Positions 8,379 through 49,486 of a stretch of DNA of 64,000 nucleotides are shown piece by piece; positions within the stretch are counted from its first letter, which is position 1; each line of letters starts with the position of its first letter. Below the pieces are notes generated by a model. That model made no database searches. It was not told the DNA's origin and saw nothing but the letters and a program-made list of their open reading frames with translations. The position numbers and the translations under genes were made by a program. Source of the stretch: Cladocopium goreaui (taxonomy: Eukaryota > Sar > Dinophyceae > Suessiales > Symbiodiniaceae); NCBI GenBank assembly GCA_947184155.2, contig CAMXCT020002646.1, forward strand, positions 345,558-409,557. Direction: 5' to 3'.

Positions 8379-8384
8379 AAGCCC

Positions 8385-8573
8385 GGAGCCTTTTGGAGCC
8401 AGCTTGTGGGACTTTCGCGGCTTGCGGGCCGGCAACTAAAAGGGCCTTCTGGGATCAAGGGGAAACGGCCATTTTTAGCCAAATCCTGGCCGAAGCCTTT
8501 TGGAGCCAGCTTTTAAGACTTTCGCGGCTTGCGGGCCGGCAACGAAAAGTGCCTTCTGGGCTCAAGGGGAAAC
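8385..8573. repeat. Two ~100-bp tandem units
   Basis: GGAGCCTTTTGGAGCCAGCT ... CAAGGGGAAACGGCC occurs twice (about 8385-8470 and 8485-8573), linking the two large duplicates. Confidence 0.75.
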
Positions 8574-9775: not shown

Positions 9776-9985
9776 CCAAAACCACGGTAGTTGCGGTGTT
9801 TTTTTGCTCCTGGAACCAAAAACCACGGTGTTTACAGTGTTTTATGGCCAGCACCTAGCAAAAACAGTGGTATTTACGCAGTTTTCAGCATGTTGCAAGA
9901 CGTACTTTTGCCAGGCCAAACGCACAAAAACACCGTAAATTACAGTGTTTCGGCATTTGAAACCCGATGAAAACCGTCAAGAACC
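9655..9985. repeat. ~310-bp direct repeat, copy 1
   Basis: Contains CCAAAACCACGGTA and TTGCGGTGTTTTTTTGCTCC blocks ending AACCCGATGAAAACCGTC. It is repeated at 10005-10310. Confidence 0.85.
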
Positions 9986-16231: not shown

Positions 16232-16434
16232 AGGATTTAGCGCACTCACCTTTTTTGTGCTAAGCAGGGTTAGTTGGTAGAAAAGTTGGCTAGACCACCC
16301 AACTTACCCTCGGCCCTTGCTCTCCGGAATGGAGACATATACCACTCCGTAGCCATGATTAAAGCAACAATTTTGACACAACACAAACGAAAATGAAGTA
16401 GGGGTGTGAGGGATTCACCTAGTTCTTTTCCTTC
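16231..16434. repeat. Split repeat B1 (204 bp)
   Basis: Internal copy of B. The tyrosine recombinase reading frame ends inside it at 16415. Confidence 0.9.
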
Positions 16435-17095: not shown

Positions 17096-17137
17096 CTTCC
17101 AAGCTTGGTTGACGTTCGGATTTTTCCAGCCCCTCTA

Positions 17138-20725: not shown

Positions 20726-20781
20726 AATGAGCTCATCTATCTCCGCCAGACTTGGAGGATCCTCCTCATCACTGATGCAGA

Positions 20782-22224: not shown

Positions 22225-22714
22225 CCGATGCTCCCTCCGTAGACTCCGCTATTACAGTACCGGGCGGAGGGAGATCTTCACTGCGCGGAGGAGGAGCAGT
22301 AACCGACGAGCTGTCACTTTCCTCCTTCTCGTCCGCCTCCTTTGGCTTACCGCCGCCCTTGGCTTTTGCCTTGGCTCGCCTTTCTTCAATCTTCTTACCA
22401 ATGAATTGATCCCGAGCTTTCCCCTTGTTTTTCTTGGGCTTTGATCCCTCACTTGAGTATTGATAATCCCAAGAGGAATCCCAGCCCCAATTCCAGGGCT
22501 GTTGGCCCCAATAAGACCAGCCTTTACCTTTGTAGTAACCTTTCTGGTTTTTCCCAAGGTGCTTCCCTTTACCTTTACCCTTTGAAGAGGGCTGGGAAGG
22601 AGCGCCCTTTGCTTCCTCACCTAAGTCCTCTCTCTTCTCCTTATACTCCGCAGAGCGGGGAGGAGAAGGAGGCTCGGGCACCCGAGCTGAAGAGCTAGCC
22701 CCTTTCAGGATCAC
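22115..22714 (-). CDS. Basic Lys/Gly-rich ORF of the DIRS-order element
   Basis: 199 residues with KGKGKGKHLGKNQKGYYKG, WGQQPWNWGWDSSWDYQY and an Arg/Lys-rich segment, then an acidic Ser-rich tail. No zinc knuckle. The composition suggests an RNA-binding N-terminal gag partner. The frame is open upstream of this ATG to about 22860, where it meets the frame of the preceding ORF, so the two may be one protein joined by a frameshift or splice. It overlaps the gag-like ORF start by 110 nt. Confidence 0.55.
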   Translation of the reverse strand: MILKGASSSARVPEPPSPPRSAEYKEKREDLGEEAKGAPSQPSSKGKGKGKHLGKNQKGYYKGKGWSYWGQQPWNWGWDSSWDYQYSSEGSKPKKNKGKARDQFIGKKIEERRAKAKAKGGGKPKEADEKEESDSSSVTAPPPRSEDLPPPGTVIAESTEGASGADQVAPERVENWADATEASTPGCSNTGQTEASQGA

Positions 22715-22845
22715 CTCCTTACTCCCCTTGGGTGGAGGAGGAGGAGGCGCCGAAGGGCCGTCTTTTCCTCGCAGCTGAGGAACCCAACCGGACTTCTTAT
22801 CCGGAGGCTGCTCCTCCTTGATCTCCTTCTTTTCAGGCTCCTTTT

Positions 22846-23349
22846 CTAACCCTTCACTATGAGGGGGTGTTCTCTCCTCTTGCTTTGGGCTAAATCGCTC
22901 CCTCTCCTGTCACGAGATACCTCGCGAGGTGAGGGGGAATGGTGTCGCCTCCTCTCACGTCTATGCGACTGAGGAGACTGACTGTGTTCTGGTTTGGGAG
23001 ATCGGGTAGGAGGCCTTCGTTGGCGCCTCCTGTCCCGCGATCGATCCGAATGCCTTCTCTTTGAAGTACGCTCTCCTGGGGATCCTTGAGAGCGAAGTTC
23101 CTCCCCTGGTCCTGGGAGTTCTCCTCTTGTATTTGTATCCCGAGGAGCAATGAAGCTACTCCTTCCGCCAACTGGAGCGAGGAGTACCTTCGAAGTGAGG
23201 ATTCCGAGGATGCTGGCTAACTGCTCAGCTGTCCTATCGTAATCCTCCTCAGTAAACCCAGGCTGACCCGATACCTGGGTTAATGCCACACACAGGTATG
23301 AAGTTTCGTGGGAGAAGGTTTTTTTGTGGGATATGCGTTCGGACCTCAC
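22846..23349 (-). CDS. Arg/Ser-rich first ORF of the DIRS-order element
   Basis: 167 residues. The N-terminal part (GFTEEDYDRTAEQLASILGI) looks like a small globular segment. The C-terminal part is Arg/Ser/Pro-rich with RS and SP repeats (SKRRHSDRSRDRRRQRRPP). It ends at TAG near 22846, where another frame continues into the next ORF. RS-type tails suggest RNA binding, but the family is not recognised. Confidence 0.45.
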   Translation of the reverse strand: MRSERISHKKTFSHETSYLCVALTQVSGQPGFTEEDYDRTAEQLASILGILTSKVLLAPVGGRSSFIAPRDTNTRGELPGPGEELRSQGSPGERTSKRRHSDRSRDRRRQRRPPTRSPKPEHSQSPQSHRRERRRHHSPSPREVSRDRRGSDLAQSKRREHPLIVKG

Positions 23350-23875
23350 TTTAGGTTACCGGGAGGCCTCAGAAGCGTACCAAAGTGTCATGTTGAAATG
23401 GAAGGTACACAAGAACGCATATCAAGCGTTCCAGCTACTTGTCCTGGCTCAAGCCCTGTACCAAACATAAATATGTATGCTATATGTCATATTGCTCTTC
23501 CATTCGATGGGTGAAAACCAGCAAACAGGCAAAAAAAAACGGTGGTCGCGACATGAGACCCAAACCCGGCAAATCTTCAGCAATCTAACTTTTCACCAGT
23601 CGGATCAGAATGTATGCCAGACAGAACGCCAAAACTTTTGCCAGGTAAAATTTGCAAAAGATTTGCCAGATAGAACGCCATATTTGATGCCAGATAGAAC
23701 GCCCGAAGCGACACCAGAAGAAATTACATATATATAATAGAATGCCAGAATGTATGCCAGGGTTTATGTGACGGGGGGGTCGGTCGAAGCAAAGAATTGT
23801 TTTAAGTCTTTGTTTGTTGTTTTCGGTCTTTCGGTTTTGTTTATTTCTCAATAAGCGTATGTTTTTTCTCAATTT

Positions 23876-24135
23876 GATCACAATCAGAAAATTCTGATTG
23901 TGATCAGAAAATTCACTCAATAAGCGTTCTTTTTTCTCAATTTGATCACAATCAGAAAATTCTGATCACAATCAGAAAATTCTGATTGTGATCAATAAAA
24001 ATTCACTCAATAAACGCGTTTTTTTTCTCAATTTTGCATCAAAAATAAGCAAAATTGAGAAAAAAAACGCTTATTGAGTGAATTTTCTGATCACAATCAG
24101 AATTTTCTGATTGTGATCAGAAAATTCTGATTTGC
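23876..24135. repeat. Large imperfect hairpin region
   Basis: The arm TTCACTCAATAAACGCG, T-rich stretch, then CTCAATTTTGC (about 24001-24037) is mirrored by GCAAAATTGAG, A-rich stretch, then CGCTTATTGAGTGAA (about 24049-24087). Further inverted GATTGTGATC/GATCACAATC pairs surround it. Confidence 0.8.
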
Positions 24136-24139
24136 ATTT

Positions 24140-25385
24140 TTTTTGGATCACAATCAGAAAATTCTGATCAATCAGAAAATTCTGATCACAATCAGAAAAT
24201 TCTGATCACAATCAGAAAATTCTGATCACAATCAGAAAATTCTGATCACAATCAGAAAATTCTGATCGCAATCAGAAAATTCTGATCACAATCAGAAAAT
24301 TCTGATCACAATCAGAAAATTCTGATCGCAATCAGAAAATTCTGATCACAATCAGAAAATTCTGATCACAATCAGAAAATTCTGATCACAATCAGAAAAT
24401 TCTGACACAATCAGAAAATTCTGAAAATTCTGATCACAATCAGAAAATTCTGATCACAATCAGAAAATTCTGAAATCAGAAAATTCTGATCACAATCAGA
24501 AAATTCTGATCACAATCAGAAAATTCTGATCACAATCAGAAAATTCTGATCACAGATCAGAAAATTCTGATCACAATCAGAAAATTCTGATCACAATCAG
24601 AAAATTCTGATCACAATCAGAAAATTCTGATCACAATCAGAAAATTCTGATCACAATCAGAAAATTCAGAAAATTCTGATCACAATCAGAAAATTCTGAT
24701 CACAATCAGAAAATTCTGATCACAATCAAAAAATTCTGATTTGCAGGATAACAATCAGAAAATTCTGATCACAATCAGAAAATTCTGATCACAATCAGAA
24801 AATTCTGATCGCAATCAGAAAATTCTGATCGCAATCAGAAAATTCTGATCACAATCAGAAAATTCTGATCACAATCAGAAAATTCTGATCACAATCAGAA
24901 AATTCTGATCACAATCAGAAAATTCTGATCGCAATCAGAAAATTCTGATCACAATCAGAAAATTCTGATCACAATCAGAAAATTCTGATCGCAATCAGAA
25001 AATTCTGATCACAATCAGAAAATTCTGATCACAATCAGAAAATTCTGATCGAAAATTCTGATCGCAATCAGAAAATTCTGATCACAATCAGAAAATTCTG
25101 ATCACAATCAGAAAATTCTGATCACAATCAGAAAATTCTGATCACAATCAGAAAATTCTGATCACAATTCTGAGAAAATTCTGATCACAATCAGAAAATT
25201 CTGATCACAATCAGAAAATTCTGATCACAATCAGAAAATTTCTGATCACAGAAAATTCTGATCGCAATCAGAAAATTCTGATCACAATCAGAAAATCCTG
25301 ATCACAATCAGAAAATTCTGATTTGCATTTTTTTGGATAACAATCAGAAAATTCTGATCACAATCAGAAAATTCTGATTCTTGAT
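24140..25385. repeat. 20-bp tandem array (GATCACAATCAGAAAATTCT)
   Basis: About 1.25 kb of head-to-tail GATCACAATCAGAAAATTCT units, with a GATCGCAATC variant at several sites and some partial units. Every full unit holds a GATC. It lies in the 5' leader of the DIRS-order element. There is no coding role; the long interruption-free regularity suggests recent expansion. Confidence 0.95.
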
Positions 25386-35985: not shown

Positions 35986-36375
35986 GATAGGGTATATGGG
36001 GTTTTCCATAAGGTTTGTTTACCAATGTGGGGTCAGCGACCTGCGAAAACCTCATATCTGGTCATCCCATCCGGAAAAAAACCATCCAACTGTGGACCCC
36101 CAAGTGATGGGTAACTCAGAATCCAACTTTTCACCATGTTACATATGGAAATAGATGAAATATGTTGAAATGTTCATATCCCAATTTTGGGGAAATATCT
36201 TTAAAAAAAAACTTCAAACAAACTGCCGCCAGTTTTCGGTCATAGTCACAAGGACAAGAACTCACACACCCATACACCATCTGACTCACAGTGCCCACAA
36301 AGTACAAATCACTGCGAAAACTACAGCGAAAGTTTTTGCCTTTAAATTTAGAATATCAAAAGTGTGTGCGCGCGT

Positions 36376-36928
36376 GTGTGTGTGTGTACCATCTGAACAG
36401 ATGTAAAACTTCTGATTGGTTTTCACTAATTTGCAGGGGGGTGCAGAGCACAGTGGAGACTGCACCCAACGAAGCTATCCACTTGTGCTGGAAGCAGAGT
36501 CTGATCAACTCTGTGTACCTGCAAAATTTGGTTTCAACTGTTGATCAAGCTGTTACACTGCGTTGTTTCGAATCTACACGGTTGCCACAATCTGTATTGC
36601 ATGCATCAGAACCTTCCTCAGATTTTCGCCGAAACCATATCGCCGACAGTATTATGTTTTTTGACTTATTTTCGCCGAGACCCTGTCGCCGACGAACTAT
36701 GGGTTATTTTGGGAAACAATCGCCGAAACATTATTTTGGATTTCCACATGCTGGTCAAAACTCTATGGAATCTGGTTATGACTACGTTTGACAATTTCGG
36801 ATGCCCTACATCGTTTGCGAGAAGTACCTCATGTGGCTCTTTTATTCATCTAATAATCTAGGCTGGTTTGCATGTTTCAGGATTCAGTTCCTGCCGGATC
36901 ATATAATGATCCATTCTTGTCTAGTGTG
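36376..36928 (+). repeat. Left direct terminal repeat (553 bp)
   Basis: (GT)n, then a small hairpin ACCATCTGAACAGATGT, a TTTGCAG acceptor-like site, and in its second half five TCGCCGA heptamers within about 110 bp. It ends TTCTTGTCTAGTGTG. The 131-codon open frame inside is present in both copies, but I do not regard it as a gene. Confidence 0.9.
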
Positions 36929-37460
36929 ATTTCCATGGTGGCTCCGACATGGTGCCATGGAGCCATTGGAGGCAACCCTCTTCAGGGTGAGTGTTGACAG
37001 ACTTGAATTCTGAATTTACACTTTTCAACTCAGTAATTCATTTAAGTAAAGTGCAACAGCCAGCCTTTCGGTTATTCGCCTTTTGTGATGTCCCGCCGCT
37101 CCTATTGTCCCAGGGACCCCAGTGCTGCGTTCTTTCAAGGGAAGCCATTCCGAATGTTCTGAAACCTCCGTTTTTTGCAGCTGCTTTGCAACACCGTTGC
37201 ATCAAATCATGACAGAGAAATCAGGCAGGCACACGACTTTCAGGTGTGGTGATCCTTTCTTTTGATGGTTGTCTGGTGAGGTGAAACATATTGTGCACCT
37301 AATTCGTTGGAACTTGAAAGCTGTTTTATGCCATTGCGGCACGACTTGACCACGGTCCCGGTGCAGGGAATAATTGCACGATTTTGTAGGTAGTTAGGGA
37401 CTGAATCCTGTATGTGAAACTTTTTACAATTGTCCACTTTTGTTTTGACCTACTGAAGCG
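36929..37460 (+). other. Leader between left repeat and ORF1
   Basis: 532 nt with no long plus-strand frame. T-rich stretches (ACTTTTTACAATTG, CACTTTTGTTTTGACC) precede CTACTGAAG just before the ORF1 ATG, a possible trans-splice acceptor. Confidence 0.45.
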
Positions 37461-40079
37461 ATGCATCCGTGGAACACTCCAACATCATGGCCTGCTCCAC
37501 CACAGCCTTCGAACCCATCTTCGACGTGGCCGCAATCGACACCGAGTGCACATTTATTTGGACATCCCTCGGCTTTGCATCCTACATGGTCATCCTCCGC
37601 TTCGCTCATGCCGTCTACATCCGCCCCAACATCGTTGCCGTTCACCTCATTGACTTCGGCTCCTCATGCAGTACCAGGTCCACAACTTGTACCCACCATG
37701 CCTTCACCTTTGGCTCCTGAACCAACTATGGTACACACCGCTCCGTCGACTTTTCCATCTCCTATGGCACCTACCGCTCCACCCGCGTGGCCTTCCACTT
37801 CGGCTCCATCCCCTACATCGACTACACCACCTACATCGACTATGACACCGACTCCTTTGCCCAGTTCTCCATACCCACCTCACCACATTCAACCTCCATT
37901 ACAGATGGACGCATCGACGATCCCTCCAAATGAGCCTTCACCACGGCCCCCAGCAGTCAAAGCAGCTCCCAGGCATCGCTCTGACAAAAGACCGGATCGA
38001 CCGCGCAGACCAGCTCCGAAAACCCCTCCTCACGCTACACCATCGACACCTCAGACAGCACCGACTTCATCCGTTCCACCTGAACTTGCATCCCTGGGTT
38101 CCACCGCACAACAACTGGCCGAATCTGTTCGACTTATCCAAGCTCAGCAACTATTACTCATGGATTCTCAACGGGCACAAGAACAACGTCAACTCCTTCT
38201 TCAACAAGATGAACATCCACCGAATCCTACACCACAGATACCGCCACCTACACCTACACCACCACTGATCGCCACGCCTCCACCTGCACCAAAGGCCAGA
38301 CCCACCGAACCGGACGTTCAGGACCATCGCATTGTCCCAGCTCCAACCATCGCTCCTCCTCACCAACCACACGGTCCACCACCACCAACACGCCGACCAC
38401 GATCCCGAACTCCAAGATCACGTTCCCATCGACCTTCTGTACATTCCTATCGCCTTCGTCATTCTCCTCCACGTACAGAGCGACCTCGTTCTCCTCTCCC
38501 TCGTCATCGATCATCTACGAAACCCGACAAGAGCCGCAGAACACCATCTCCATACAGACGACGCTCACCACCACGACGCCGCTCTCCTGTGGTCCCTCGA
38601 CGTCACCGCTCCCATCCACGCCCACGCTCCGCGACACCACGTCACCGATCCCGAGGCCGTGAAGTCATACTTCGACCTGCTGCAAACCCATCCAATCCGA
38701 ACTACATTCCTACTCCTGATGCTGATGACACCTGGGGTACATGGAACGAAAGCCACTACAACGACGCCTACGACCACCACACTGCTCGACCCAATTCTCC
38801 TACTGATCCACCACCATCGGAACCACAAACCAACCCACCAACCCACACTTCAGCACCACTCGGCGCGGTGTCCTTCCGAGTTCCGGACGGCGACAGTGAA
38901 AATTCTGAGGTTGCTGATACCATTTCGCTCACCAAGTTTGACACGAATGACATCGACCTCGATGAAATGGTGGCGGCGGCCAATGACCCCCATAGAGTTC
39001 GATGCCTGACCGAGCTTGGCCCCGATCATGTTGTTCCTCTACGCCAATCATTGACCCCGGCTATCTTGCAGCTCTTCAACCAGTTTGTGGACGCGATGTT
39101 CGAACAGTTGGCTAAACCATACCGCACCGTCAACAACCATCGTATTTGGATCAAAGCCAGCCAAGCCACCGTCAGGAATATTGCCAGGGCCTTTGCACAA
39201 TCCGACTTACTGGACATCGAACTTGCAAAGCAAACACAAGCCTTCTATATTGAGCCAGAGAACTTGCTGACCATCACGGTTCCCACAGGATTGAAGAAGA
39301 AACCAATCTACCGTGGCGAACACATGGGCACCTACCTGATCTACCACAAGACAAGTTGGGAATCAGTTGCCAAAATTCTTGCTGAAGACTGCATCCGCCC
39401 GGCAACTTGGACAAAAAACGAAGCCGGTATACCGACCCAATACCCGTGTTACGGGTTCTTCGGAATGTCCTCTGAGATCGCAGACACCGACAACCTACCC
39501 GGCTATGCTGTCAGGATTTGTACCTCTCAGCTTTACAAAATAGGCAAAGGACAAAACCCATCAGGCCTGCTGGCCATATGCCGCTCACCCAAATGCATCC
39601 GTGCCCTAGCTGGAGGAAATGACCAAATCCAACGCTTGTGCAACCTTGCGGGCATCGCCAAGGGCAAAGACAATGCAACGGCTATGAACTCAAGCGCTGC
39701 ATCTATATGCTACGTCGCCTCCACTCACCAGGTTTTCCCGGGCTTGATCACACACCAGACTGCGGAGACCAATGCACCTTCGGAACCTCCTGATGATTCT
39801 GCACGTCCAGTACGACCTGACCCTTCTGCCGACGCCCCAGAACCTTCGGAGCCGGCCCCGGACGACTCTCACAATACACCGAGCCGCCGCGAGACTGCTA
39901 CCTCTGGCTCCCGGGACTATGCTCGCCGATCTTGGCATGACAATGCTGCTTGGGACAATTCCACCTACAGCCGCCGAGATCGCCGATCCTCATATTATGA
40001 CGACCATTCTCGCGACCAGCACCATGAAGGCCGACCTCGTTCTCGACATTCGACCCACCACTCCAAATCTCGTTGGTGA
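37461..40079 (+). CDS. ORF1: Pro/RS-rich protein with ADP-ribosyltransferase-like C-terminal region
   Basis: 872 residues. Residues 1-300 are Pro/Ser/Thr-rich and probably disordered. About 310-410 is an Arg/Ser domain (SRTPRSRSHRPS, RRRSPPRRRSPVV). About 500-770 is globular, and the tail is again RS-rich. In the globular part, LIYHKTSWESVAKILAEDCI (His629) resembles the first motif of PARP/KptA-type ADP-ribosyltransferases, CYGFFGMSSEIAD (Tyr664/Phe666) the second, and YVASTHQVFPGLI (Gln757) the region after the catalytic Glu. The usual Glu is not evident (Ser/Ile there). The fold assignment is my inference from motif spacing and order. It begins the ORF series, and its RS regions suggest RNA binding or a gag-like role. 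Composition differs sharply between the N-terminal and central parts. Confidence 0.7.
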   Translation: MHPWNTPTSWPAPPQPSNPSSTWPQSTPSAHLFGHPSALHPTWSSSASLMPSTSAPTSLPFTSLTSAPHAVPGPQLVPTMPSPLAPEPTMVHTAPSTFPSPMAPTAPPAWPSTSAPSPTSTTPPTSTMTPTPLPSSPYPPHHIQPPLQMDASTIPPNEPSPRPPAVKAAPRHRSDKRPDRPRRPAPKTPPHATPSTPQTAPTSSVPPELASLGSTAQQLAESVRLIQAQQLLLMDSQRAQEQRQLLLQQDEHPPNPTPQIPPPTPTPPLIATPPPAPKARPTEPDVQDHRIVPAPTIAPPHQPHGPPPPTRRPRSRTPRSRSHRPSVHSYRLRHSPPRTERPRSPLPRHRSSTKPDKSRRTPSPYRRRSPPRRRSPVVPRRHRSHPRPRSATPRHRSRGREVILRPAANPSNPNYIPTPDADDTWGTWNESHYNDAYDHHTARPNSPTDPPPSEPQTNPPTHTSAPLGAVSFRVPDGDSENSEVADTISLTKFDTNDIDLDEMVAAANDPHRVRCLTELGPDHVVPLRQSLTPAILQLFNQFVDAMFEQLAKPYRTVNNHRIWIKASQATVRNIARAFAQSDLLDIELAKQTQAFYIEPENLLTITVPTGLKKKPIYRGEHMGTYLIYHKTSWESVAKILAEDCIRPATWTKNEAGIPTQYPCYGFFGMSSEIADTDNLPGYAVRICTSQLYKIGKGQNPSGLLAICRSPKCIRALAGGNDQIQRLCNLAGIAKGKDNATAMNSSAASICYVASTHQVFPGLITHQTAETNAPSEPPDDSARPVRPDPSADAPEPSEPAPDDSHNTPSRRETATSGSRDYARRSWHDNAAWDNSTYSRRDRRSSYYDDHSRDQHHEGRPRSRHSTHHSKSRW

Positions 40080-40422
40080 ATTCTTTACCCTTGAGGAGTA
40101 CCAGAACAAGTATCGACTATTCTACGTCGGCGATCCAGTGAGCCTAGTGGCCCTGCCCGATTATTTTGGAGTAACAATGCTTCTCCCGACATTCGGTACT
40201 GCTGCCACTTCTTCCTCAAAAGGTTTGTGACTCGCTGCATGCTCATATTGTGGATCCTTGCGCAAGATTCGTTTTCACCTTATGTTTCACACACTGGAAC
40301 CTCGTATTATGTTTCACTTTTTCACTCGCACACTATCCTTGTCTCACCCTGACATTTCTCGCAGCTTTCATTCGGCAGTTCGAGCGCATTTTGACCTATT
40401 GTCTCGTGACCCTCTCTACCTC

Positions 40423-41727
40423 ATGGCGTCCCAGGACCTGATCTCCCAATACAGCGCGGATATGAATGGAATTCCTCCTTCCCAGCCGGATCGCTCGCGC
40501 ACACCACCTCGTCATCCACATGGTTGGCACCAAGCAGTACCGGCGTTCCGTGGCCCGATGCACTATGCCATGACGACCCATCGACCCTTTTGGAACCCAT
40601 CCGGAATACCGCCTCCACCGCCTACGTCTCCATCGTTCCCAACACGCCCACCATGGACTTCGCCTACGGCACCTTTTCCGCCCACGCCGCCTCCGAGCTC
40701 ACAGACACCCCCCAACAACGCCAGTTTTGCACCTCAACGTCACCCTTTTACACCGAGATCACCGAGACCTATGTCATCCCCAGGAGCAAGTTCTTCTGTC
40801 AACGAAGGATATACATGCAGACCAATTGAAATCCCACCAGTTGAGAATTGGAAACCTGATGTCGACTTCCACGACTCCAACAAGATCAATGGTTTGGACT
40901 TCCCTTCTAGAATCCGACAGAGCAGATTTTCAAGCTACAAGGACATTGAAGGGATGGATCCTTTACAAGTCCCACTCTGGAAGTTCTTGTACCAGGGCTT
41001 ACACAATACTTGGCTTCGCCGAGTTGCATACGGAAGAGAAACCTTCGTCCTTCCTTTTGACAACATAGGCACTACAGTATTTGTGGCCGAATTGGTATCA
41101 CAACTACGCACTCGCAATGTAGACTTGGACAAACTCGCTACATTCCGAGCTCGTTCAGCAGGCCAATGTCTCAACCAAAAGGAGGCCACCCAAAACATGG
41201 CCAAAGATGTTGCTCAACTTCTCCAATCTTGGCTCCCGACTCAACCTTCTGCTGACGTGGCCAGCCAACAACGCATTCTTGAACTGGAGGCAGAACTGGC
41301 CAAGGTCAAATCGGCCGCTACTACCTCACCAACTACTGCACCTCCGGGCTCCACTCCAGCCACGACACCGATTGGACGTGCACTTCAAGGACAACCTGCC
41401 GCGTCTACGACCTTTGAACCCTCAACTCTGCTTATTTCTCCGGGCTCCGTGAACACTTGGCTCGTTGACAACCAACCCACATCATTGTCGGACACTCAAT
41501 ACACCAAGTGGTTGAAAGCTTTGAAGCTACCACAGCCCAAACAGGACATCCTGGAGAAGAACTTGGAAAAGGTCAATGAATGGTGGCAAAACCAACCCGA
41601 TGATGCTTCGAAAACTATCCAACGCGCAAGCGTGGCTATGGGTATCGACCCTTGCAAACACAAGGGGGCCTCCACGGATGAAGTAGTCCTCAAGGTCATG
41701 ACGGTGGCGTTATTGATGCAATCCTGA
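40423..41727 (+). CDS. ORF2: unknown protein with Pro-rich N-terminus and coiled coil
   Basis: 434 residues from ATGGCG at 40423. The frame is open to 40258, but upstream codons lie in a T-rich spacer that ends CATTTCTCGCAG. The N-terminal ~130 residues are Pro/Ser-rich. A globular block follows (VPLWKFLYQGLHNTWLRRVA, TFVLPFDNIGTTVFVAELVS), then the coiled coil RILELEAELAKVK, a linker, and a C-terminal helical segment (YTKWLKALKLPQPKQDILEK, NLEKVNEWWQNQPDD). It ends 45 nt before the ORF3 ATG. Family unknown; an RNA-binding partner of the RT is plausible from position only. Confidence 0.7.
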   Translation: MASQDLISQYSADMNGIPPSQPDRSRTPPRHPHGWHQAVPAFRGPMHYAMTTHRPFWNPSGIPPPPPTSPSFPTRPPWTSPTAPFPPTPPPSSQTPPNNASFAPQRHPFTPRSPRPMSSPGASSSVNEGYTCRPIEIPPVENWKPDVDFHDSNKINGLDFPSRIRQSRFSSYKDIEGMDPLQVPLWKFLYQGLHNTWLRRVAYGRETFVLPFDNIGTTVFVAELVSQLRTRNVDLDKLATFRARSAGQCLNQKEATQNMAKDVAQLLQSWLPTQPSADVASQQRILELEAELAKVKSAATTSPTTAPPGSTPATTPIGRALQGQPAASTTFEPSTLLISPGSVNTWLVDNQPTSLSDTQYTKWLKALKLPQPKQDILEKNLEKVNEWWQNQPDDASKTIQRASVAMGIDPCKHKGASTDEVVLKVMTVALLMQS

Positions 41728-41772
41728 CTAGCAGCATATTTGAAAGCACCTGGCTCAAAAGCAGCCAACATT

Positions 41773-44499
41773 ATGCGAACTTTGGCCGTGGCTCATTCCT
41801 GTATTCTTGTTCTCGCACTATTGACTCCTTTCACGTTGTCCCCTTCTGTTGATGTCTTTTTTGCTTTTCGGATGCTTCAAACAGTATTGATGGGCCAATA
41901 TGTATTGTTACATCCACGGGCCAATCCGAAACTCCAAGCCTTGCTAAAAGGCACTCCGATGCAGAGTATTTTCTTTTGCAGATCCTGGGATGACTTGTCT
42001 GTCGCTCTCCAATGTTTCAAGCATCCCCAGGCGGTGTATATTCGTTTCTGCCACATTGCGAATTTTCAACCTAAGTTTTACATTGGCTCCACGTCCTCAT
42101 TTGTTTTAGACCGCGAACACTCTCGCTATCGGAAATTTCTGCAAGTGCAACAACATAAATTCGTGCTGGCCGAAGTAGCCTTACGGTTTTGGTGTAGATT
42201 TGACAATTTCTGGATGTGGTCTGTTTTCCCGATCTACACCAATAAATCCAACTTTTGGGCCTTGGAACAGGCCTTAATTCAACTGTGGCAACCTCGATTG
42301 AACACTCCGTTCATTTACCAGTTTTTCAACTGCCGAAAGGGACTCATTGCACGTACCAAATTTTCTGCCTCTCGGCAATTTGGAACATTCTCCTTGTGGC
42401 GGAAGCTTCGTTGGCGATCTACACCCCATCATGTTCGACACGCTCTTCACAGTCCTCTCTTTCATCGACGAGTACAACTCTGGGAGATTATCCAGGATTT
42501 GGGCAGTAACTCCGTTCGACGCTTCCACATGGAGAAGAGATTACGATCCAACGAAATTGGAGTTCAAGGCTGCTATTTTATTCGACGTCTTGCCAACAAC
42601 CTCGGAGAACCCCAAAGGTCGTACGCCGTCAATGCCGTTGACCGAGCTTTGACCTTCTGGAAAGCCAAACGAGTCAGAAAACCGGTTCCTCTTCGTGCGC
42701 CTTGGCTACTATGCCCCAATTGGACTCGGGATCTTCGACGCCTACTCACCTCCCACGTTCATCAAACCCGACACTACAACACCACATTGCAGACTCCTTC
42801 CACGGCGATTGTCTTCACAAAGTTCCCCTCGGTGATGGATAGCTTGTGCAATCACAAAGAAGCCGCTACCAAATGGGCTGACGGCGAAACCCCAAAGTGT
42901 GCCTGTGATGCCTTGCGACCTCATGCTCTTCGTGGTCTCCCACCCGATCAACACCTGGTCCTCGACGGCGACAACCTACATTTTGATGATGGCCCACACA
43001 CATCCATTGCGACTGGTTCGCTTCAAAACAAAATCTTCCCACCTTCCAAAGAAATCCAGACATCGCTTCGCCTGGCTTTGCGGACATGGACTACCCGACA
43101 CTCACTCCCTTCCTTACAAAAGCCCCATATTGATGAGCTTTGGCATCGTTCTATTCAATCCCACTACCACACACTCAACAACCACATCACTCACAAAGAC
43201 ATCAGCCGTTTCAAACGTCTTTTTCCAGAAGCCGTCTTCCACAACGAGGACAAGCGAGCCACATCCCTACGAATCTACTGCCCCGTGCTCTACTTCCAGT
43301 GCCTCACTACCACCTTTGCCGACCCGTTGGTATTTCGCAAATTGGAGCAAAGCCCGAGCGACATCATCGAGCGGACCATCGCCGAGATCAATCGCCATTT
43401 TGGCAATTCATACCCATGGGCACTTGGTGCTGGACGAGATCTGCCGAACGCCTATGTTCTACCCAAAAGGAAAAAACAGTTCAAGGCGGGACGACCTATT
43501 GTCAGCTTCTTCACGGCACCTTTCCGACCTATGTTGAACTGCACCGCCAAGCTGATTTACAACCTTCTACCTCAAGCGTTTCCCCACAACCTGGCCAGGG
43601 GTGATGTATTCGATCTCATCAAGCTCCTCAAGGACACTGACTTTGATTCGCTCCCCACTCCACGAATACACAACCAAGATCTTGCGGGCTTTTTCACAAG
43701 CATTGACACGGACCGCTTCATCGCGAGCTGGCGACTGACCCTGCAGTTCCTCTTGCCCCTCATGAATACCGCCCCCGATGAGATCATCTCCGTGAAAGCA
43801 ACTCCGGGCAACAAAACAGGGGACGTAGTAAAAGGCCGCACATGCCGTACACTCAATGTGACCAGGAAGATCTTCATTCGGGACATTGAACGCATCATCC
43901 TTATGTCCTTGAAGATGACTCAATTCTCCATCGGCACTAGGGTTTTTGAACAAATCCGAGGATCCCCTATGGGCTCCCCACTGAGTCCAGCTTTGTGCAT
44001 GATGGTTGTCGCACTGTCCGAAGAAATCTGGTACAAAACTTACCGTACCACCCTTAGCAACATGGATCTTACAGCTCGCCTCCTTCGCTATGTGGACAAC
44101 AGATTGTGCTTGTCGGACCCCAGCTGGGACTACGAAATTTGCTTCGCCAATTTCCTCCACCCGGAGTTCTACGGCCATCCTATCATTTTGGAAACTGAAC
44201 CGGACCAGGAGTTCTTGGGCTTTTGCATCGAGTTCGAGCCTTTTGCCCTCCGCTACAGCCCTCCACGCGACTTCAACCAGGTCATGGCGCCATTCTCCGC
44301 ATCACCTTTGGCCGTCCAACTTTCAGGCTTTGTTTCACGATTATTTCTGGTCGCCAAATGTGCGCACCCCACACATGAACGGACACGAGGTTTTGCCGCA
44401 TTGCATCGTTTGTACAGATCAGCCGGTTTCGCCGAGTCCGATCTCTTCGCTGCTGCCAAGCCGATTCGTCAATATTTACACGTTTCCTTATTGTGGTAA
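41773..44499 (+). CDS. ORF3: Penelope-like reverse transcriptase with N-terminal GIY-YIG nuclease
   Basis: 908 residues from ATG at 41773 (the frame also allows TTG at 41740). The GIY-YIG domain is near residues 85-130: AVYIRF (Val88-Ile90), KFYIGSTSS (Tyr103-Gly105), then DREHSRYRKF with the conserved Arg. RT follows: LPKRKKQFKAGRPIVSFF, motif A QDLAGFFTSIDTDRF (Asp636), motif B QIRGSPMGSPLSPALCMMV (about 725-745) and motif C RYVDNRL (Tyr773), which has Asn in place of the second Asp. These motifs match Penelope-like elements, and the N-terminal nuclease matches the permuted Naiad/Chlamys-type order, not the usual C-terminal one. The protein would nick the target and prime cDNA synthesis there. 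No C-terminal nuclease and no RNase H are present. Confidence 0.88.
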   Translation: MRTLAVAHSCILVLALLTPFTLSPSVDVFFAFRMLQTVLMGQYVLLHPRANPKLQALLKGTPMQSIFFCRSWDDLSVALQCFKHPQAVYIRFCHIANFQPKFYIGSTSSFVLDREHSRYRKFLQVQQHKFVLAEVALRFWCRFDNFWMWSVFPIYTNKSNFWALEQALIQLWQPRLNTPFIYQFFNCRKGLIARTKFSASRQFGTFSLWRKLRWRSTPHHVRHALHSPLFHRRVQLWEIIQDLGSNSVRRFHMEKRLRSNEIGVQGCYFIRRLANNLGEPQRSYAVNAVDRALTFWKAKRVRKPVPLRAPWLLCPNWTRDLRRLLTSHVHQTRHYNTTLQTPSTAIVFTKFPSVMDSLCNHKEAATKWADGETPKCACDALRPHALRGLPPDQHLVLDGDNLHFDDGPHTSIATGSLQNKIFPPSKEIQTSLRLALRTWTTRHSLPSLQKPHIDELWHRSIQSHYHTLNNHITHKDISRFKRLFPEAVFHNEDKRATSLRIYCPVLYFQCLTTTFADPLVFRKLEQSPSDIIERTIAEINRHFGNSYPWALGAGRDLPNAYVLPKRKKQFKAGRPIVSFFTAPFRPMLNCTAKLIYNLLPQAFPHNLARGDVFDLIKLLKDTDFDSLPTPRIHNQDLAGFFTSIDTDRFIASWRLTLQFLLPLMNTAPDEIISVKATPGNKTGDVVKGRTCRTLNVTRKIFIRDIERIILMSLKMTQFSIGTRVFEQIRGSPMGSPLSPALCMMVVALSEEIWYKTYRTTLSNMDLTARLLRYVDNRLCLSDPSWDYEICFANFLHPEFYGHPIILETEPDQEFLGFCIEFEPFALRYSPPRDFNQVMAPFSASPLAVQLSGFVSRLFLVAKCAHPTHERTRGFAALHRLYRSAGFAESDLFAAAKPIRQYLHVSLLW

Positions 44500-44672
44500 A
44501 ATCCTGAACTGTCTTGCCGCTGACGCTTACGTTTCACTGCTCACACCTTGCTGAAAGTCTCACCCCTTTGGACCTTATTTGCATCTATTTGATCACGGAA
44601 CAGTGCTTTTCCAGCAGGCTTACCCTCAAACTCGGCTCCATTTACCTGTTGGCCCATACTCGACGCATTGTC

Positions 44673-45305
44673 ATGGCTTCCTCGTCTCCTACGACGTCAA
44701 TTCCGATCCAAGAACCAGTGTTTCTTCAATTTCTTCATGATGTTCACCATGCTTACCTTCTACTACATCGAGCAATGGCGCTACTACCACCCACTCTCAT
44801 TCCCAACATTGAACCTACTCCTCTTCCCAGTACAGACGTATGGAATCAACCTGATGGCCTACGACCACACTATTCGGACCAGACCAATGCCTTCATTGAC
44901 AATGCCCCCATCCCATCGCCGGATCTGGAAGAAGAAGAGACACTTATGGATGAACTGGTGGAAACCCATCTTCCCGAGCCGCACCAACATGTTGCTGCTC
45001 CGCCTCCTGATGTTTTACCTGCACCTTCGAAGCTTTCTACTAGAACACCATCACCGCCAAGTCGCAAACAGAAAGCCAAATCTGCTCCAAAGGCTCCTGC
45101 CAAGCGTCGTCGCCGCCGTGACCAATCCCGATCCCGCTCCTCGAGCCCATTATCACTCTGGACCTCTGAAGACAAACAGAAACTACGCACTCTGAAGGTT
45201 GACGAAAAATCTCGATTTTCATGGAAGGTGATCTCGACCAAGATGGGCAAGTCTGAAGAAGATGTTCGCTCTATGTGGAATAAGATCAAAGACCAACTTG
45301 GCTGA
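44673..45305 (+). CDS. ORF4: protein with C-terminal Myb/SANT-like domain
   Basis: 210 residues from ATGGCT at 44673, after a spacer containing GTGCTTTTCCAG. The frame extends upstream to 44514 without an ATG. An acidic middle (DLEEEETLMDELVE) is followed by Pro-rich sequence, a nuclear-localisation-like KAPAKRRRRRDQSRSRSSS, and the C-terminal ~48 residues LWTSEDKQKLRTLKVDEKSR, FSWKVISTKMGKSEEDVRSM, WNKIKDQLG. The three regularly spaced Trp and helix pattern match a single Myb/SANT repeat. Such domains bind DNA or histone tails and could direct the element to chromatin. Confidence 0.75.
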   Translation: MASSSPTTSIPIQEPVFLQFLHDVHHAYLLLHRAMALLPPTLIPNIEPTPLPSTDVWNQPDGLRPHYSDQTNAFIDNAPIPSPDLEEEETLMDELVETHLPEPHQHVAAPPPDVLPAPSKLSTRTPSPPSRKQKAKSAPKAPAKRRRRRDQSRSRSSSPLSLWTSEDKQKLRTLKVDEKSRFSWKVISTKMGKSEEDVRSMWNKIKDQLG

Positions 45306-45417
45306 CCATTGACATATGCGAATCACAAGGAAAAGGTACGTTGCGGTACGGTATTACTGTTTCACCAACCCGTTGGCCTTCATTTTGGGAATTTTCTTCT
45401 TGTTTATCTTCAGAACC

Positions 45418-46152
45418 ATGGACGCTGTTGTCCCATTGAATTCTGACACGTCGTATCACACAACCCGCCAGCCATTTATTATGTCTCTCCGCGTTCACCT
45501 GGACCGCTATTGCCAACAGCGAGCTATGTCCCACGAGAGGATCTCACCTACACGACGCTCACGCTCTCCAACCAGGACGTCATCTTCCGCTATGGGCTCT
45601 ACGTCATTCCGGCACCCACCCAACCGGTCTTCGCCTCCGACACCTCACCGACCGGTTATTTTCCAGTTGGACCTGAAGCCGATGCAACAACTGGCCGTAC
45701 GCAACCCTTATTACAACATCTTGACCCCCAATGTCGCGGGCAACCTTCCTACGGCCACCTATGACAGCTTGTTCCAGACGTTCAAGGTCATCTACCCGGA
45801 CTATGCTCGCAGTCATTTCGTTTCAGACCTCAAAACCGTAGTCACCGACACACTGCTACAACGCTGGTCCATACACCTACCAGCGTCGGAGTTCTACATG
45901 ATGATTGACACCGATCAAGGAGCTCAGATGCTTGACGACCTTCCTCATTCTCTTCTGGATGTTTTGAATTGGTTCTACCCGAGATGGAAAACTCATCAAC
46001 ATCTCGATGCCTTCACGACCCGCGAGTGTTCTCCGTTGCTGCTGACACCACATCCAGATGCACAAGACACTGGCTTTGCTGTACATGTTCAAGTGATTCC
46101 CCGTGGACATCCATTCGTCACGGCCACCCGATACACTAAAGCCGCTGAGTGA
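45418..46152 (+). CDS. ORF5: unknown protein, related to ORF7
   Basis: 244 residues from ACCATGG at 45418. The spacer just before it is T-rich and ends TTTATCTTCAG. The frame is open to an ATG at 45316, but that extra stretch translates as a hydrophobic segment of spacer DNA. After a basic Ser/Arg-rich N-terminus, a globular domain runs from VIFQLDLKPMQQLAVRN to the end. The segment LLQRWSIHLPASEFYM ... LLDVLNWFYPRWKTHQHL ... TTRECSPLL aligns in order with LRSQWDIQIDPSNLEF ... VLQLLEAYRPEWRLRQY ... NSRESSFLI of ORF7. No known family. Confidence 0.7.
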   Translation: MDAVVPLNSDTSYHTTRQPFIMSLRVHLDRYCQQRAMSHERISPTRRSRSPTRTSSSAMGSTSFRHPPNRSSPPTPHRPVIFQLDLKPMQQLAVRNPYYNILTPNVAGNLPTATYDSLFQTFKVIYPDYARSHFVSDLKTVVTDTLLQRWSIHLPASEFYMMIDTDQGAQMLDDLPHSLLDVLNWFYPRWKTHQHLDAFTTRECSPLLLTPHPDAQDTGFAVHVQVIPRGHPFVTATRYTKAAE

Positions 46153-46371
46153 TTAGCTGTCTTGATGGATCTTGACACGGCTCACGTCTATGAGGAAAAA
46201 GACCAACATTCGTTGTGATGTCCACCACCCCGGTTCTGATTTTCCCTTGTGTCATCCTTTTCTCGTTTTCCAGTGGGTGATATTCGTTATTTATTCCTTC
46301 ATCATTGACCTTCCCCACGGCCTTTTGGCTTCAGTTTAGTATTTCCCGCTATCATATTCTTTTGATCGTAC

Positions 46372-47061
46372 ATGATGACCTCCAACACGGATGATCCTGC
46401 TCGATTGGTCTCGCACGGTTTACCACCTACATCCATACATGGCCTTGCCTCACACTTGCCACCGGATGATCCCACCTCGGCATCCTATATTCCTCGTGCA
46501 GCGAGAATGATTCCGACCTCTACCACTGTCCACTCCGTCTTCATCAAGAAGCTGAGCTATCCTTTGTCTAACCGTTCAGATGAACTTTGGATCGTGGAAA
46601 GGACACTTGATGGTCTTGAAACGTGGAAACCAGTGGAAACATTCCTGGAGAACATGCACCTCACCAACGACCAGGCAACCTTGCGCACTACAGCTAACCA
46701 TTGGCGCAGATACTATGATGTACCAATTCAACCATCATCCTCCTCCCCTACGGCAACTACTGTTCCCGTTTTACCACACCCTGAACACTCCAACGTCCAT
46801 GTCTCACAGCCGTACGAAGCGATACCGGACCACCTCCATATTTTACAGTCATGCTGGGGACGCTCCGCCCAACACCATTCTCAAGGAACCACTACCTCTT
46901 TATATTGGCCACCTTGGCGGTCTACACCACCGTCTTCCCCACCGGCAACACTACACCGTACTGTATATCTCACTCGCCCCGCTGTCCCTCCTCAACAAGT
47001 ACATGGTCCGTTGGATGCGAACGATATTGACCCGATGGATATGTCGGATTCAAGTGTGTAA
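46372..47061 (+). CDS. ORF6: unknown protein, related to ORF8
   Basis: 229 residues. The start at 46372 (ATGATGACC) follows a spacer with CTCGTTTTCCAG and CTTTTGGCTTCAG. The core VHSVFIKKLSYPLSNRSDEL ... TLRTTANHWRRYYDVPIQP aligns with VHQIQFKVITHSNNTRELF ... SLRTADYWRHHFEIPLVHG of ORF8. The C-terminal third is Pro/Ser/Thr-rich. No known family. Confidence 0.7.
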   Translation: MMTSNTDDPARLVSHGLPPTSIHGLASHLPPDDPTSASYIPRAARMIPTSTTVHSVFIKKLSYPLSNRSDELWIVERTLDGLETWKPVETFLENMHLTNDQATLRTTANHWRRYYDVPIQPSSSSPTATTVPVLPHPEHSNVHVSQPYEAIPDHLHILQSCWGRSAQHHSQGTTTSLYWPPWRSTPPSSPPATLHRTVYLTRPAVPPQQVHGPLDANDIDPMDMSDSSV

Positions 47062-47242
47062 TATACCACATTCTTTGTCGGCGGAAAAAAGACCTGTGAT
47101 TCATCGTCTCTTTGTGTGACCATTTACTAGGTACACCGTTTCTCTTTTATTTCTAACACTTTGTGCTTGTTCCTGTGGCTATTCCAACCCATTTTGCAGC
47201 TTGGGCTTTGCGCTTTATCCTCGATACTTCACATTCGACGCA

Positions 47243-47836
47243 ATGGCTCGTTCTTCTCGACCCAATCCATATCGCGCCACATCTACGATTGAGACACCGC
47301 TTGGTACACGAACCGTTGGGTGGATTGCTGGACATCGAGGCCTCCCTGGTGATGTGAACCCTCCTCCAAACAGACCTGTCCTTATCTTGGTTGACTTCTC
47401 TCCCTTACAGGCATTGACTCACCGAAGCGAACCTGACCGTGAACACTACATGGCTCTGGTGAACTCCAATTTTAGACATGTCAGTGGCTTTGAACTTGCA
47501 GCTTTGTTTACCTGGTCACGTCAGATGGAACCAGTTGAAGCCGGCCTCATCCCAATTGCCGAACTCCGCTTTTGTATCTCCAAAAGATTGAGGTCCCAAT
47601 GGGACATCCAAATTGATCCCTCGAACCTGGAGTTTCGCTTTTGCGACTTGGACGGTGATACATTCCAAGTTTCCAATGATATGACGGTCTTGCAGCTTTT
47701 GGAGGCATACCGACCTGAGTGGCGACTTCGGCAGTACAATTCCCGCGAATCCTCTTTCCTCATCCCGGGTACCAGACAGCCTTTCGTACTACGCTTGAAA
47801 TGCTACAAAATTAGCTCCGGTGTGATCCTGCCCTGA
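47243..47836 (+). CDS. ORF7: unknown protein, related to ORF5
   Basis: 197 residues from CAATGGCT at 47243. The spacer carries CCAACCCATTTTGCAG upstream, and the open frame reaches back to 47201 without ATG. There is little disordered sequence: PVLILVDFSPLQALTHR near the N-terminus corresponds to VIFQLDLKPMQQLAVRN of ORF5, followed by the shared W-x-I, P-x-W and REss-LL blocks. Likely one member of a duplicated ORF5-ORF6 / ORF7-ORF8 pair. Confidence 0.7.
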   Translation: MARSSRPNPYRATSTIETPLGTRTVGWIAGHRGLPGDVNPPPNRPVLILVDFSPLQALTHRSEPDREHYMALVNSNFRHVSGFELAALFTWSRQMEPVEAGLIPIAELRFCISKRLRSQWDIQIDPSNLEFRFCDLDGDTFQVSNDMTVLQLLEAYRPEWRLRQYNSRESSFLIPGTRQPFVLRLKCYKISSGVILP

Positions 47837-48099
47837 TGCACTAGCCGGCCAAAAAAGACCATGCTACAGGGTTTTCAATTCCTCCTTGACACCCCACTAA
47901 CACAAAGGATTTTTCGATTTCTATTTTATTTGACTTGGAGCTGTGGCTTCTCCGTCGCAACTGACCCACTTGATTGAGGACTGGATTTCACTTTTTTCAT
48001 TTTTGTGAATATTATCAATTTCGGGATTGGCTTTCTTCTGCAATTCTTGATGCTTCAGCCGTTGTTGCACTATTTCTCGCATTTGTGACAGTTTCACCC

Positions 48100-48825
48100 A
48101 TGGAACACAAACGAGACGCGACCGTGGCGGGCTTGTCTTGGCCTGCGAACTCTACTCGTGGACTCGCTCCTACCGACCCAGTTCAAGTACCAGACGCCTC
48201 GACTTCTGCACTATGTCACTCAGGAGCTCCCGACACTACGACCAACCCTACTCCGGCACCTTTGGTAACTGACAGTACGGCACCTGCTACGGGTACACTG
48301 GCCCATTCTGATACATATTCAGGACCAGCACCTCCTGGCGTTCCATTTCCGACAGACTCAAGTTCTACACACAACTACTTCCATCGTGCTCAGTTCTCTT
48401 CTCGCGTGGTTCACCAGATCCAATTCAAGGTCATTACCCACTCCAACAACACCAGGGAGCTATTCATTGAAGAAATTCCTTTGTTAGGGCATTCCCGATG
48501 TCGTGACCCTGAACACTATTTCTATGGTCTCTCCGGCAACTGGGAGTGGTCCCTGCGCACAGCGGACTATTGGCGACATCATTTTGAGATTCCCCTTGTA
48601 CATGGACACCATCCTTTTCACAATGTGCCCATTGAGACGACATCTCCTGGAGATGAACCAAGGCTGACCACCCGGATCCATGAATTAGCCAAAGATCTAT
48701 CTGACACCTTGAAGGCTGCTACGGCATCGGGGGAATTCGATCAGACTTGGGCGATGGTTGAACGCATGAGCTTCCACGATGCTATGGAAGTCCTTCTACA
48801 AGCTCCGAATTCCTCTTCTGACTGA
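48100..48825 (+). CDS. ORF8: unknown protein, related to ORF6
   Basis: 241 residues from CCCATGG at 48100. Upstream TTGATGCTTCAG and GTGACAG are possible acceptors; the frame is open to 47974 with a spacer-like translation. The Thr/Pro-rich N-terminus is followed by the domain shared with ORF6 (VVHQIQF ... LRTADYWRHHFEIP), then a helical C-terminal tail (IHELAKDLSDTLKAATASGE) absent from ORF6. It ends 108 nt before the right terminal repeat. Confidence 0.7.
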   Translation: MEHKRDATVAGLSWPANSTRGLAPTDPVQVPDASTSALCHSGAPDTTTNPTPAPLVTDSTAPATGTLAHSDTYSGPAPPGVPFPTDSSSTHNYFHRAQFSSRVVHQIQFKVITHSNNTRELFIEEIPLLGHSRCRDPEHYFYGLSGNWEWSLRTADYWRHHFEIPLVHGHHPFHNVPIETTSPGDEPRLTTRIHELAKDLSDTLKAATASGEFDQTWAMVERMSFHDAMEVLLQAPNSSSD

Positions 48826-48933
48826 AGTGACCGCCCTTTTGTACATTAGGTTATTACAGGTTCACTTTCACTGGTGTCTTGCCGATTCCGCCAGCGAAGT
48901 TCTTCCAAAAAACCGACCTCGCTACATGCGAGG

Positions 48934-49486
48934 TGTGTGTGTGTACCATCTGAACAGATGTAAAACTTCTGATTGGTTTTCACTAATTTGCAGGGGGGTG
49001 CAGAGCACAGTGGAGACTGCACCCAACGAAGCTATCCACTTGTGCTGGAAGCAGAGTCTGATCAACTCTGTGTACCTGCAAAATTTGGTTTCAACTGTTG
49101 ATCAAGCTGTTACACTGCGTTGTTTCGAATCTACACGGTTGCCACAATCTGTATTGCATGCATCAGAACCTTCCTCAGATTTTCGCCGAAACCATATCGC
49201 CGACAGTATTATGTTTTTTGACTTATTTTCGCCGAGACCCTGTCGCCGACGAACTATGGGTTATTTTGGGAAACAATCGCCGAAACATTATTTTGGATTT
49301 CCACATGCTGGTCAAAACTCTATGGAATCTGGTTATGACTACGTTTGACAATTTCGGATGCCCTACATCGTTTGCGAGAAGTACCTCATGTGGCTCTTTT
49401 ATTCATCTAATAATCTAGGCTGGTTTGCATGTTTCAGGATTCAGTTCCTGCCGGATCATATAATGATCCATTCTTGTCTAGTGTGT
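48934..49486 (+). repeat. Right direct terminal repeat (553 bp)
   Basis: I found no difference from 36376-36928 in the portions compared, including the hairpin and all five TCGCCGA heptamers. It continues into GTGTGTGTCATTATGTG host sequence. Confidence 0.9.

Follow-up and report, generated by a model that had tools for sequence, protein, structure and literature searches.

A probable Penelope-like retroelement with eight open reading frames, present as one unit in many copies in the dinoflagellate Cladocopium goreaui

In the genome of Cladocopium goreaui, a stretch of 64,000 nucleotides (GenBank assembly GCA_947184155.2, contig CAMXCT020002646.1, positions 345,558 to 409,557, forward strand; hereafter the window, in whose positions all coordinates of the unit are given) contains a 13.1-kb unit that is bounded by direct repeats and carries eight open reading frames (ORFs). 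This unit occurs in many copies with the same ends and the same gene order, and ORF1, ORF2, ORF4, ORF5, ORF6, ORF7 and ORF8 are maintained proteins, as ORF3 is. With a probability of about 0.8, it represents a multicopy, recently mobile Penelope-like retroelement (PLE) of a dinoflagellate, with a permuted nuclease-then-reverse transcriptase (RT) order and eight proteins that would be expressed through host-processed mRNAs and a leaky stop, its expression and transposition being inferred from the DNA.

One unit with eight maintained ORFs

The two repeats (36376-36928 and 48933-49485) measure 553 bp each and are spaced 12,557 bp apart; a sequence-only reading of the window had called them free of differences, and 0 differences are found, the unit ending at 49485, one base short of the 49486 given there. 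Eight plus-strand ORFs in a row, as that reading had listed them, are found between the repeats, and all are protein-like by the ratio of nonsynonymous to synonymous change (dN/dS).

36376..36928, +, left pseudo-long terminal repeat (pLTR), 553 bp, starting (GT)6 and ending CTAGTGTG
36929..37460, +, leader from the left repeat to ORF1
37461..40079, +, ORF1, 872 amino acids (aa), Pro/Ser-rich with an RS-rich stretch, dN/dS 0.21-0.23
40423..41727, +, ORF2, 434 aa, in Gag-like position, ending UGA then CUAG, dN/dS 0.04-0.06
41725..41731, +, UGA-CUAG, putative leaky-stop motif, in 15/15 copies
41728..44499, +, ORF3 together with the in-frame stretch that follows the ORF2 stop, dN/dS 0.05-0.07 (measured from 41890)
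44673..45305, +, ORF4, 210 aa, with a Myb-like domain at the C-terminus that starts near 45159, dN/dS 0.02-0.11
45418..46152, +, ORF5, 244 aa, ORF7 paralogue, dN/dS 0.10-0.14
46372..47061, +, ORF6, 229 aa, ORF8 paralogue, dN/dS 0.14-0.26
47243..47836, +, ORF7, 197 aa, predicted ubiquitin-like beta-grasp core (model with a mean predicted local distance difference test, pLDDT, of 55), dN/dS 0.06-0.16
48100..48825, +, ORF8, 241 aa, the fastest-changing ORF of the two most diverged copies, dN/dS 0.20-0.26
48933..49485, +, right pLTR, 553 bp, with the flank TGTGTC directly after

The genome searched comprises 1.166 Gb in 6,202 contigs, in which the left repeat with the leader as query gave at least 48 matches (40 scored of 2,236 candidates). 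Besides the window, 29 places match repeat and leader, all of which begin within query bases 63-79 (window 36362-36378), and the ten right-hand repeats among the matches listed share one end base. Fifteen of the 29 places are 98-100% identical, and ten of these were fetched, giving with the window 11 near-identical copies. The left repeat, the leader, ORF1-ORF8 in order and the right repeat are present in 8 of the 11, one of these complete copies carrying a 2.2-kb insertion in ORF3; the remaining three show an insertion in ORF1, an insertion in the leader (the 3' parts of both lying outside the fetched stretch) and a contig end, and in the copies interrupted in ORF1 or the leader ORF3 and ORF8 still stand at the standard spacing. 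All eight frames are open in 3 of the 11 copies, the rest being disrupted by short gaps (one or two ORFs each), by insertions or by absent segments.

Beyond these close copies, both fetched members of a 96% subfamily (C1502 and C3001) hold both repeats and all eight ORFs, and the diverged copies C1813 and C3687 hold all eight ORFs at a protein identity of 76-97% (ORF1 incomplete, plus an ORF2 gap in C3687). ORF8 matches at 150/150 scored places (of 1,639 candidates), with an identity of 75-100% and without internal stop in 149. For ORF3, 52 places were scored of 1,844 candidates, and in 45 of them ORF8 lies 3,590-3,618 bp downstream on the same strand; among the other seven, four run off the contig and three have no ORF8 among the matches listed, two of these with a stop inside ORF3. 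The single mobile unit proposed by the sequence-only reading is thus borne out by the close copies, by both 96% copies and by the ORF3-ORF8 spacing, and copies with ORF3 and repeats only, the finding that was to speak against it, were looked for, the copies instead holding all eight ORFs, with 3/11 interrupted, cut or partly fetched. One relative of about 85% identity (L020/L028/L029), adjoining the full C1446 copy, weighs against this: it retains ORF1 (85%) and 260 bp from the start of ORF2, with no later part of the unit in the stretch fetched. That the seven extra ORFs are unrelated neighbours, from other elements or host genes, caught between two copies of a one-ORF element would suit this relative with ORF1 and without ORF3-8 and the restriction of retroelement domain matches to ORF3, but this explanation, like that of an artefact, is ruled out by the gene content, order and spacing of the copies.

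As to foreign insertions within copies, these lie in ORF3 (L013/L014, about 2.2 kb, with an 8-base overlap of the sides), in ORF1 (L011/L012) and in the leader (L021/L022).

The protein nature of the ORFs was assessed from the synonymous and nonsynonymous changes that separate the window from four other copies, which form two pairs of near relatives and therefore amount to about two independent comparisons. A dN/dS of 0.02-0.26 was obtained in 32/32 ORF comparisons, against 0.68-6.64 in the two other forward frames, and a single in-frame stop was met, in ORF6 of C3687; since the ratio is this low for every ORF, all eight are maintained as proteins. Read forward from stop to stop, the unit has 12 frames that reach 190 aa or more, eight of them the ORFs and four overlapping these; 200 local dinucleotide shuffles yielded 1.24 such frames on average and never more than 4. 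With the neighbouring DIRS gene as training set, codon bias favoured the correct one of three forward frames in 7/8 ORFs, the exception being ORF3, and a reverse frame of ORF1 scored equally high; codon bias trained on ORF3 gave no discrimination between frames.

The earlier description of ORF3 as the sole known retroelement protein holds insofar as only ORF3 has retroelement domain matches, but other ORFs proved readable too. ORF4 has a Myb-like Pfam match (E 0.00099; 19.7 bits vs a cut-off of 22.9), and by blastp ORF5 matches ORF7 (2e-7) and ORF6 matches ORF8 (1e-5), so that ORF5-6 and ORF7-8 are, on sequence similarity, an old duplication. ORF5 and ORF7 may be ubiquitin-like, as the structural model suggests. 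RS dipeptides are enriched in ORF1 (P 0.008) and ORF4 (P 0.03), the other six ORFs giving no significant enrichment. No relatives of ORF1, ORF2, or the ORF5/7 and ORF6/8 alignments were found in IMG/VR; among PDB sequences, ORF5/7 had none and the C-terminal part of ORF1 one chance-level match (E 0.52). An impression by eye of an ADP-ribosyltransferase in this part of ORF1 was supported by no tool and is not claimed.

Spacer signals and the ORF2-ORF3 junction

In most spacers a poly(A)-site-like motif is followed by a T-rich stretch and then by a candidate acceptor AG, the evidence for the AG being weak.

40218..40222, +, AAAAG, poly(A)-site-like, after ORF1, also in 3/3 other copies aligned
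40363..40364, +, candidate acceptor AG, 58 nt upstream of the ORF2 ATG, also in 3/3 other copies aligned
44613..44614, +, candidate acceptor AG, 58 nt upstream of the ORF4 ATG (with a second one at 69 nt), also in 3/3 other copies aligned
45331..45335, +, AAAAG after ORF4
45412..45413, +, candidate acceptor AG, 4 nt upstream of the ORF5 ATG, retained in C1502 but absent from C1813 and C3687
46196..46201, +, AAAAAG after ORF5
46333..46334, +, candidate acceptor AG, 37 nt upstream of the ORF6 ATG, also in 3/3 other copies aligned
47085..47091, +, AAAAAAG after ORF6
47198..47199, +, candidate acceptor AG, 43 nt upstream of the ORF7 ATG, also in 3/3 other copies aligned
47851..47857, +, AAAAAAG after ORF7
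48057..48058, +, candidate acceptor AG, 41 nt upstream of the ORF8 ATG, also in 3/3 other copies aligned
48907..48913, +, AAAAAAC after ORF8, as read in the window

For dinoflagellate tandem genes, the available part of PMC2488372 describes a poly(A) site marked by AAAAG/C and a trans-splice acceptor AG that lacks a simple consensus. The motif A4+[GC] is present in 7/8 post-ORF spacers of the unit, compared with a mean of 1.20 and a maximum of 6/8 in 3,000 dinucleotide shuffles and with segments inside ORFs (P 0.00055); when the coding ORF2-3 stretch is excluded, it is present in 6/7 spacers (shuffle mean 0.92, maximum 5 in 5,000). It stands at the aligned place after ORF1, 4, 5, 6 and 7 in the window and 3/3 other copies. 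The mean T content of the 120 nt before starts is 0.38, against 0.23 before internal ATGs, and a candidate AG lies 37-69 nt before the ATG of ORF2, 4, 6, 7 and 8 in the window and in 3/3 other copies. Tests for AG-free zones that count ORF3 gave P 0.0003, 0.0035 and 0.037 for windows of 120, 150 and 200 nt.

Several observations weigh against processing at these sites. The A4[GC] count reaches only P 0.015-0.028 when AT-richer DNA from outside the element serves as the comparison, and the ORF3-4 spacer has no A4 motif of the poly(A)-site type in the window or the aligned copies. The candidate AG of ORF5 is kept in 1/3 and lost in 2/3 other copies; AG is not specially conserved, with 28/37 kept vs 46/61 for GA and 791/1,285 for all dinucleotides; without ORF3 the AG-free-zone test weakens to P 0.011, 0.045 and 0.12 for the same three windows; and GA-free zones are likewise long. 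Transcripts of dinoflagellate tandem arrays are reported not to be polycistronic. The term operon-like, used for the unit in the sequence-only reading, needs care: the DNA signals fit host-style processing, but a single precursor RNA would be a deduction from them.

It is possible, if rather doubtful, that in the same element each gene has its own dinoflagellate promoter in the spacer, with no polycistronic precursor and with full-length RNA made separately from the pLTR. Such promoters in Symbiodinium are described, in the available part of PMC5492045, as a TTTT box, a start site, a YTNAY branch point and an AG acceptor, which together with the report on tandem-array transcripts favours this arrangement, as do the 21 T4 runs in seven spacers (14.6 expected, P 0.035); however, the presence of T4 per spacer is not above shuffles (P 0.32), and the distance from the A4 motif to the scored AG is short (72-201 nt).

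ORF2 and ORF3 form one reading frame broken by a single UGA, which is followed by CUAG in 15/15 copies read. In the 162 nt 3' of this stop, each of four diverged copies shows 4-9 synonymous changes and 1 nonsynonymous change relative to the window, mostly in third positions; most of this stretch lies 3' of ATG 41773, so that the strongest support for readthrough is the UGA-CUAG motif itself, and the first 45 nt, before that ATG, hold 1 synonymous and 0-1 nonsynonymous change. The UGA-CUAG context gives efficient readthrough in four mammalian genes in mammalian cells, according to the accessible portion of PMC4132726. From the shared frame, the invariant motif and the protein-like change past the stop, it is concluded that ORF3 is probably made at least partly as a Gag-Pol-like ORF2-ORF3 readthrough product. 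That ORF3 is instead translated from a separate spliced mRNA, starting at one of its own ATGs (41773 or 41890), is unlikely: an AG stands 5 nt ahead of ATG 41890, after a 120-nt AG-free stretch, but it is lost in C1813 and C3687, and neither the coding-like evolution past the ORF2 stop nor the invariance of UGA-CUAG accords with such a start.

Class assignment, insertion and proposed mechanism

The N-terminal-nuclease clade of Penelope elements is marked by a CxC motif between nuclease and RT, by a microsatellite insertion bias and by the absence of a canonical hammerhead. In ORF3, weak domain matches give the order GIY-YIG, CxC, RT.

42034-42306, +, GIY-YIG-like motifs, N-terminal
42898-42906, +, CAC motif (CxC)
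43492-44223, +, RT motifs

The nuclease motifs read VYI...FYIG...E...N, with FYVG in 3/3 diverged copies; the single CxC of the protein, CAC at residue 337, lies between nuclease and RT and is kept in 3/3 diverged copies, as are the RT motifs, which were read by eye. No hammerhead was found (no Rfam match at E up to 5 between 34000 and 52000, none at gathering score, 0 hits of a strict pattern). ORF3 is thus best filed, on its motifs, as the permuted, nuclease-then-RT Penelope type of the Chlamys/Naiad kind, and the Penelope-like label of the earlier reading remains the best filing on sub-threshold RT and GIY-YIG profile matches, motif order and repeats.

Against this assignment stand the profile scores, which are below curated cut-offs for RT (RVT_1 E 0.0078; TIGR04416 E 0.0016) and for GIY-YIG (E 0.037, on residues ahead of the RT), the RT motif C (44089-44100), which is YVDN and not YxDD in the window and 3/3 copies read, and a single-sequence AF2 model of ORF3 with a pLDDT of 34; moreover, the clade placement is by motif, motif order and repeats. 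Apart from TIGR04416 for ORF3, no convincing match came from PHROGs or NCBIfam, and no relatives of ORF3 were found in IMG/VR, GTDB contigs or PDB sequences.

A reverse-transcribing element of another kind (a divergent LTR, DIRS or endogenous virus-like element), with the GIY-YIG and RT signals over-interpreted, would be compatible with these weak matches, and terminal direct repeats with a Gag-stop-Pol layout are also traits of LTR elements. This is nevertheless improbable: Pfam at E up to 1 detects in none of the eight ORFs an integrase, protease, RNase H or tyrosine recombinase, the nuclease motifs lie N-terminal of the RT with the one CxC in between, the repeats start (GT)6 and end GTGTG rather than TG...CA, and hydropathy gives no sign of an envelope (highest 19-residue mean 1.44). 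By eye, no tRNA primer site was seen 3' of the left repeat.

The right flanks begin TGT in 10/10 copies and the left flanks end GT in 7/9 readable copies, some inside long GT arrays; runs of (GT)5+ number only three in the window, all at repeat ends. A targeting preference is only tentative, since the repeat itself starts (GT)6 and the TG at the ends is perhaps partly the element's own. Within 9/10 copies the repeat pairs (553-555 bp) are 99.6-100% identical, against 90% in one, and subfamilies differ by about 4% in the repeat; this relation fits recent insertions in which both repeats would have been made at insertion, in keeping with the recent activity suggested earlier. The one exceptional copy, C1224 (L026), whose right repeat is only 90% like the left, is a possible mosaic of subfamilies. 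Within the left pLTR, TCGCCGA occurs five times inside 101 bp (36626-36726), possibly as a regulatory or binding array; folding of the pLTR RNA is not unusual (z 0.62).

In the Penelope-like element as read here, RNA would start in the pLTR, and in most spacers the host would attach poly(A) and the spliced leader, so that ORF1, ORF2(-3), ORF4, 5, 6, 7 and 8 would each have an mRNA of their own, with unprocessed RNA as the template. A minority of ribosomes would pass the ORF2 stop to give the Gag-Pol-like ORF2-ORF3 fusion, which would tether nuclease and RT to an RNA particle. The GIY-YIG domain would nick TG-rich DNA, the RT would copy the RNA from the nick (target-primed reverse transcription), and a tandem template or template switching would produce repeats at both ends. 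Roles in RNA packaging, DNA targeting and host interaction could fall to the RS-rich ORF1, to the Myb-like ORF4 and to ORF5/7 (possibly ubiquitin-like) with ORF6/8. A further proposal is put forward tentatively, namely that a Penelope-class element has independently evolved retrovirus-like expression, with Gag-UGA-Pol readthrough from genomic RNA, accessory mRNAs through hijacked spliced-leader/poly(A) machinery, and proteins that may form a particle rather than a single RT-nuclease ribonucleoprotein.

Host context and comparison with known systems

The remainder of the window contains one exact copy of the dinoflagellate spliced leader (3030-3050, minus strand; 0 in 100 shuffles), followed at 3050-1500 (-) by a stretch like the RT of long interspersed nuclear elements (LINEs; motif by eye), which suggests a retrotransposed trans-spliced LINE mRNA. 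At 16415-22909 (-) lies a DIRS-like element with an RT-like stretch (E 0.024), a C5 cytosine methylase (E 2e-13) and a tyrosine recombinase (E 1.6e-6), resembling SymbioDIRS-Dnmt3 of Symbiodinium as presented in the available part of PMC5890265. The spliced leader and the DIRS element with methylase therefore indicate a dinoflagellate host. At 7296-9777 and 23871-25379 there are duplicated repeats (7.4 and 8.8 kb, roughly 90% alike) together with a dense satellite array.

No class of eukaryotic retroelements is understood less well than the Penelope-like elements, which, outside the rotifer Terminons, are regarded as one-protein elements. If the present reading is true, eight selected proteins and a Gag-Pol-like stop mean that the class can reach virus-like complexity, and the class is placed in alveolates; the element would also offer a compact natural test of spliced-leader processing of multigene RNA in dinoflagellates, a disputed point. 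In the portion available of PMC12477816, PLEs are unreported in telonemids, stramenopiles, alveolates and rhizarians (TSAR) before Ectocarpus, and topic searches of the literature showed no account of Penelope elements in dinoflagellates among the papers listed.

In retroviral Gag-stop-Pol readthrough, structural and RT ORFs share one frame over one leaky stop. The present unit resembles it in having a structural-type and an RT ORF in frame across a single putatively leaky stop, and differs in lacking LTR-element enzymes and in its UGA-CUAG context, which is that of the available excerpt of PMC4132726. Canonical Penelope/Poseidon elements have RT and a C-terminal GIY-YIG in a single ORF, a pLTR, a tandem or partial-tandem layout and a hammerhead ribozyme (PMC11167929); the putative RT and GIY-YIG and the pLTR are shared, whereas the putative nuclease here is N-terminal, the ORFs number eight and no hammerhead was found. 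The giant rotifer forms, named by the sequence-only reading as nearest precedent, are the Terminons/Athena of bdelloid rotifers, multi-ORF Penelope-type elements with extra enzymatic and non-enzymatic ORFs, of which Athena are telomere-associated and endonuclease-deficient, as far as the available part of PMC5408684 describes them. The multi-ORF layout is common to both, whereas GIY-YIG-like motifs (a weak profile match) are present here and Pfam at E up to 1 detects neither DEDDy nor GDSL in the extra ORFs. The single ORF, a trait that the present unit lacks, is not taken as clade-defining because the Terminons break it too. The closest likeness in domain order is to Chlamys and Naiad, N-terminal-nuclease PLEs reportedly described by Craig et al. 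in 2021, through a putative GIY-YIG before a putative RT with CxC between, pLTRs, possibly TG/microsatellite-like ends and no hammerhead found here; the differences are eight ORFs vs one, the apparent readthrough stop between the Gag-like and RT ORFs, and the dinoflagellate host. The PLE class and multi-ORF Terminons being already known, what appears new here is the combination of eight selected ORFs and a probable ORF2-ORF3 readthrough stop in a probable dinoflagellate PLE.

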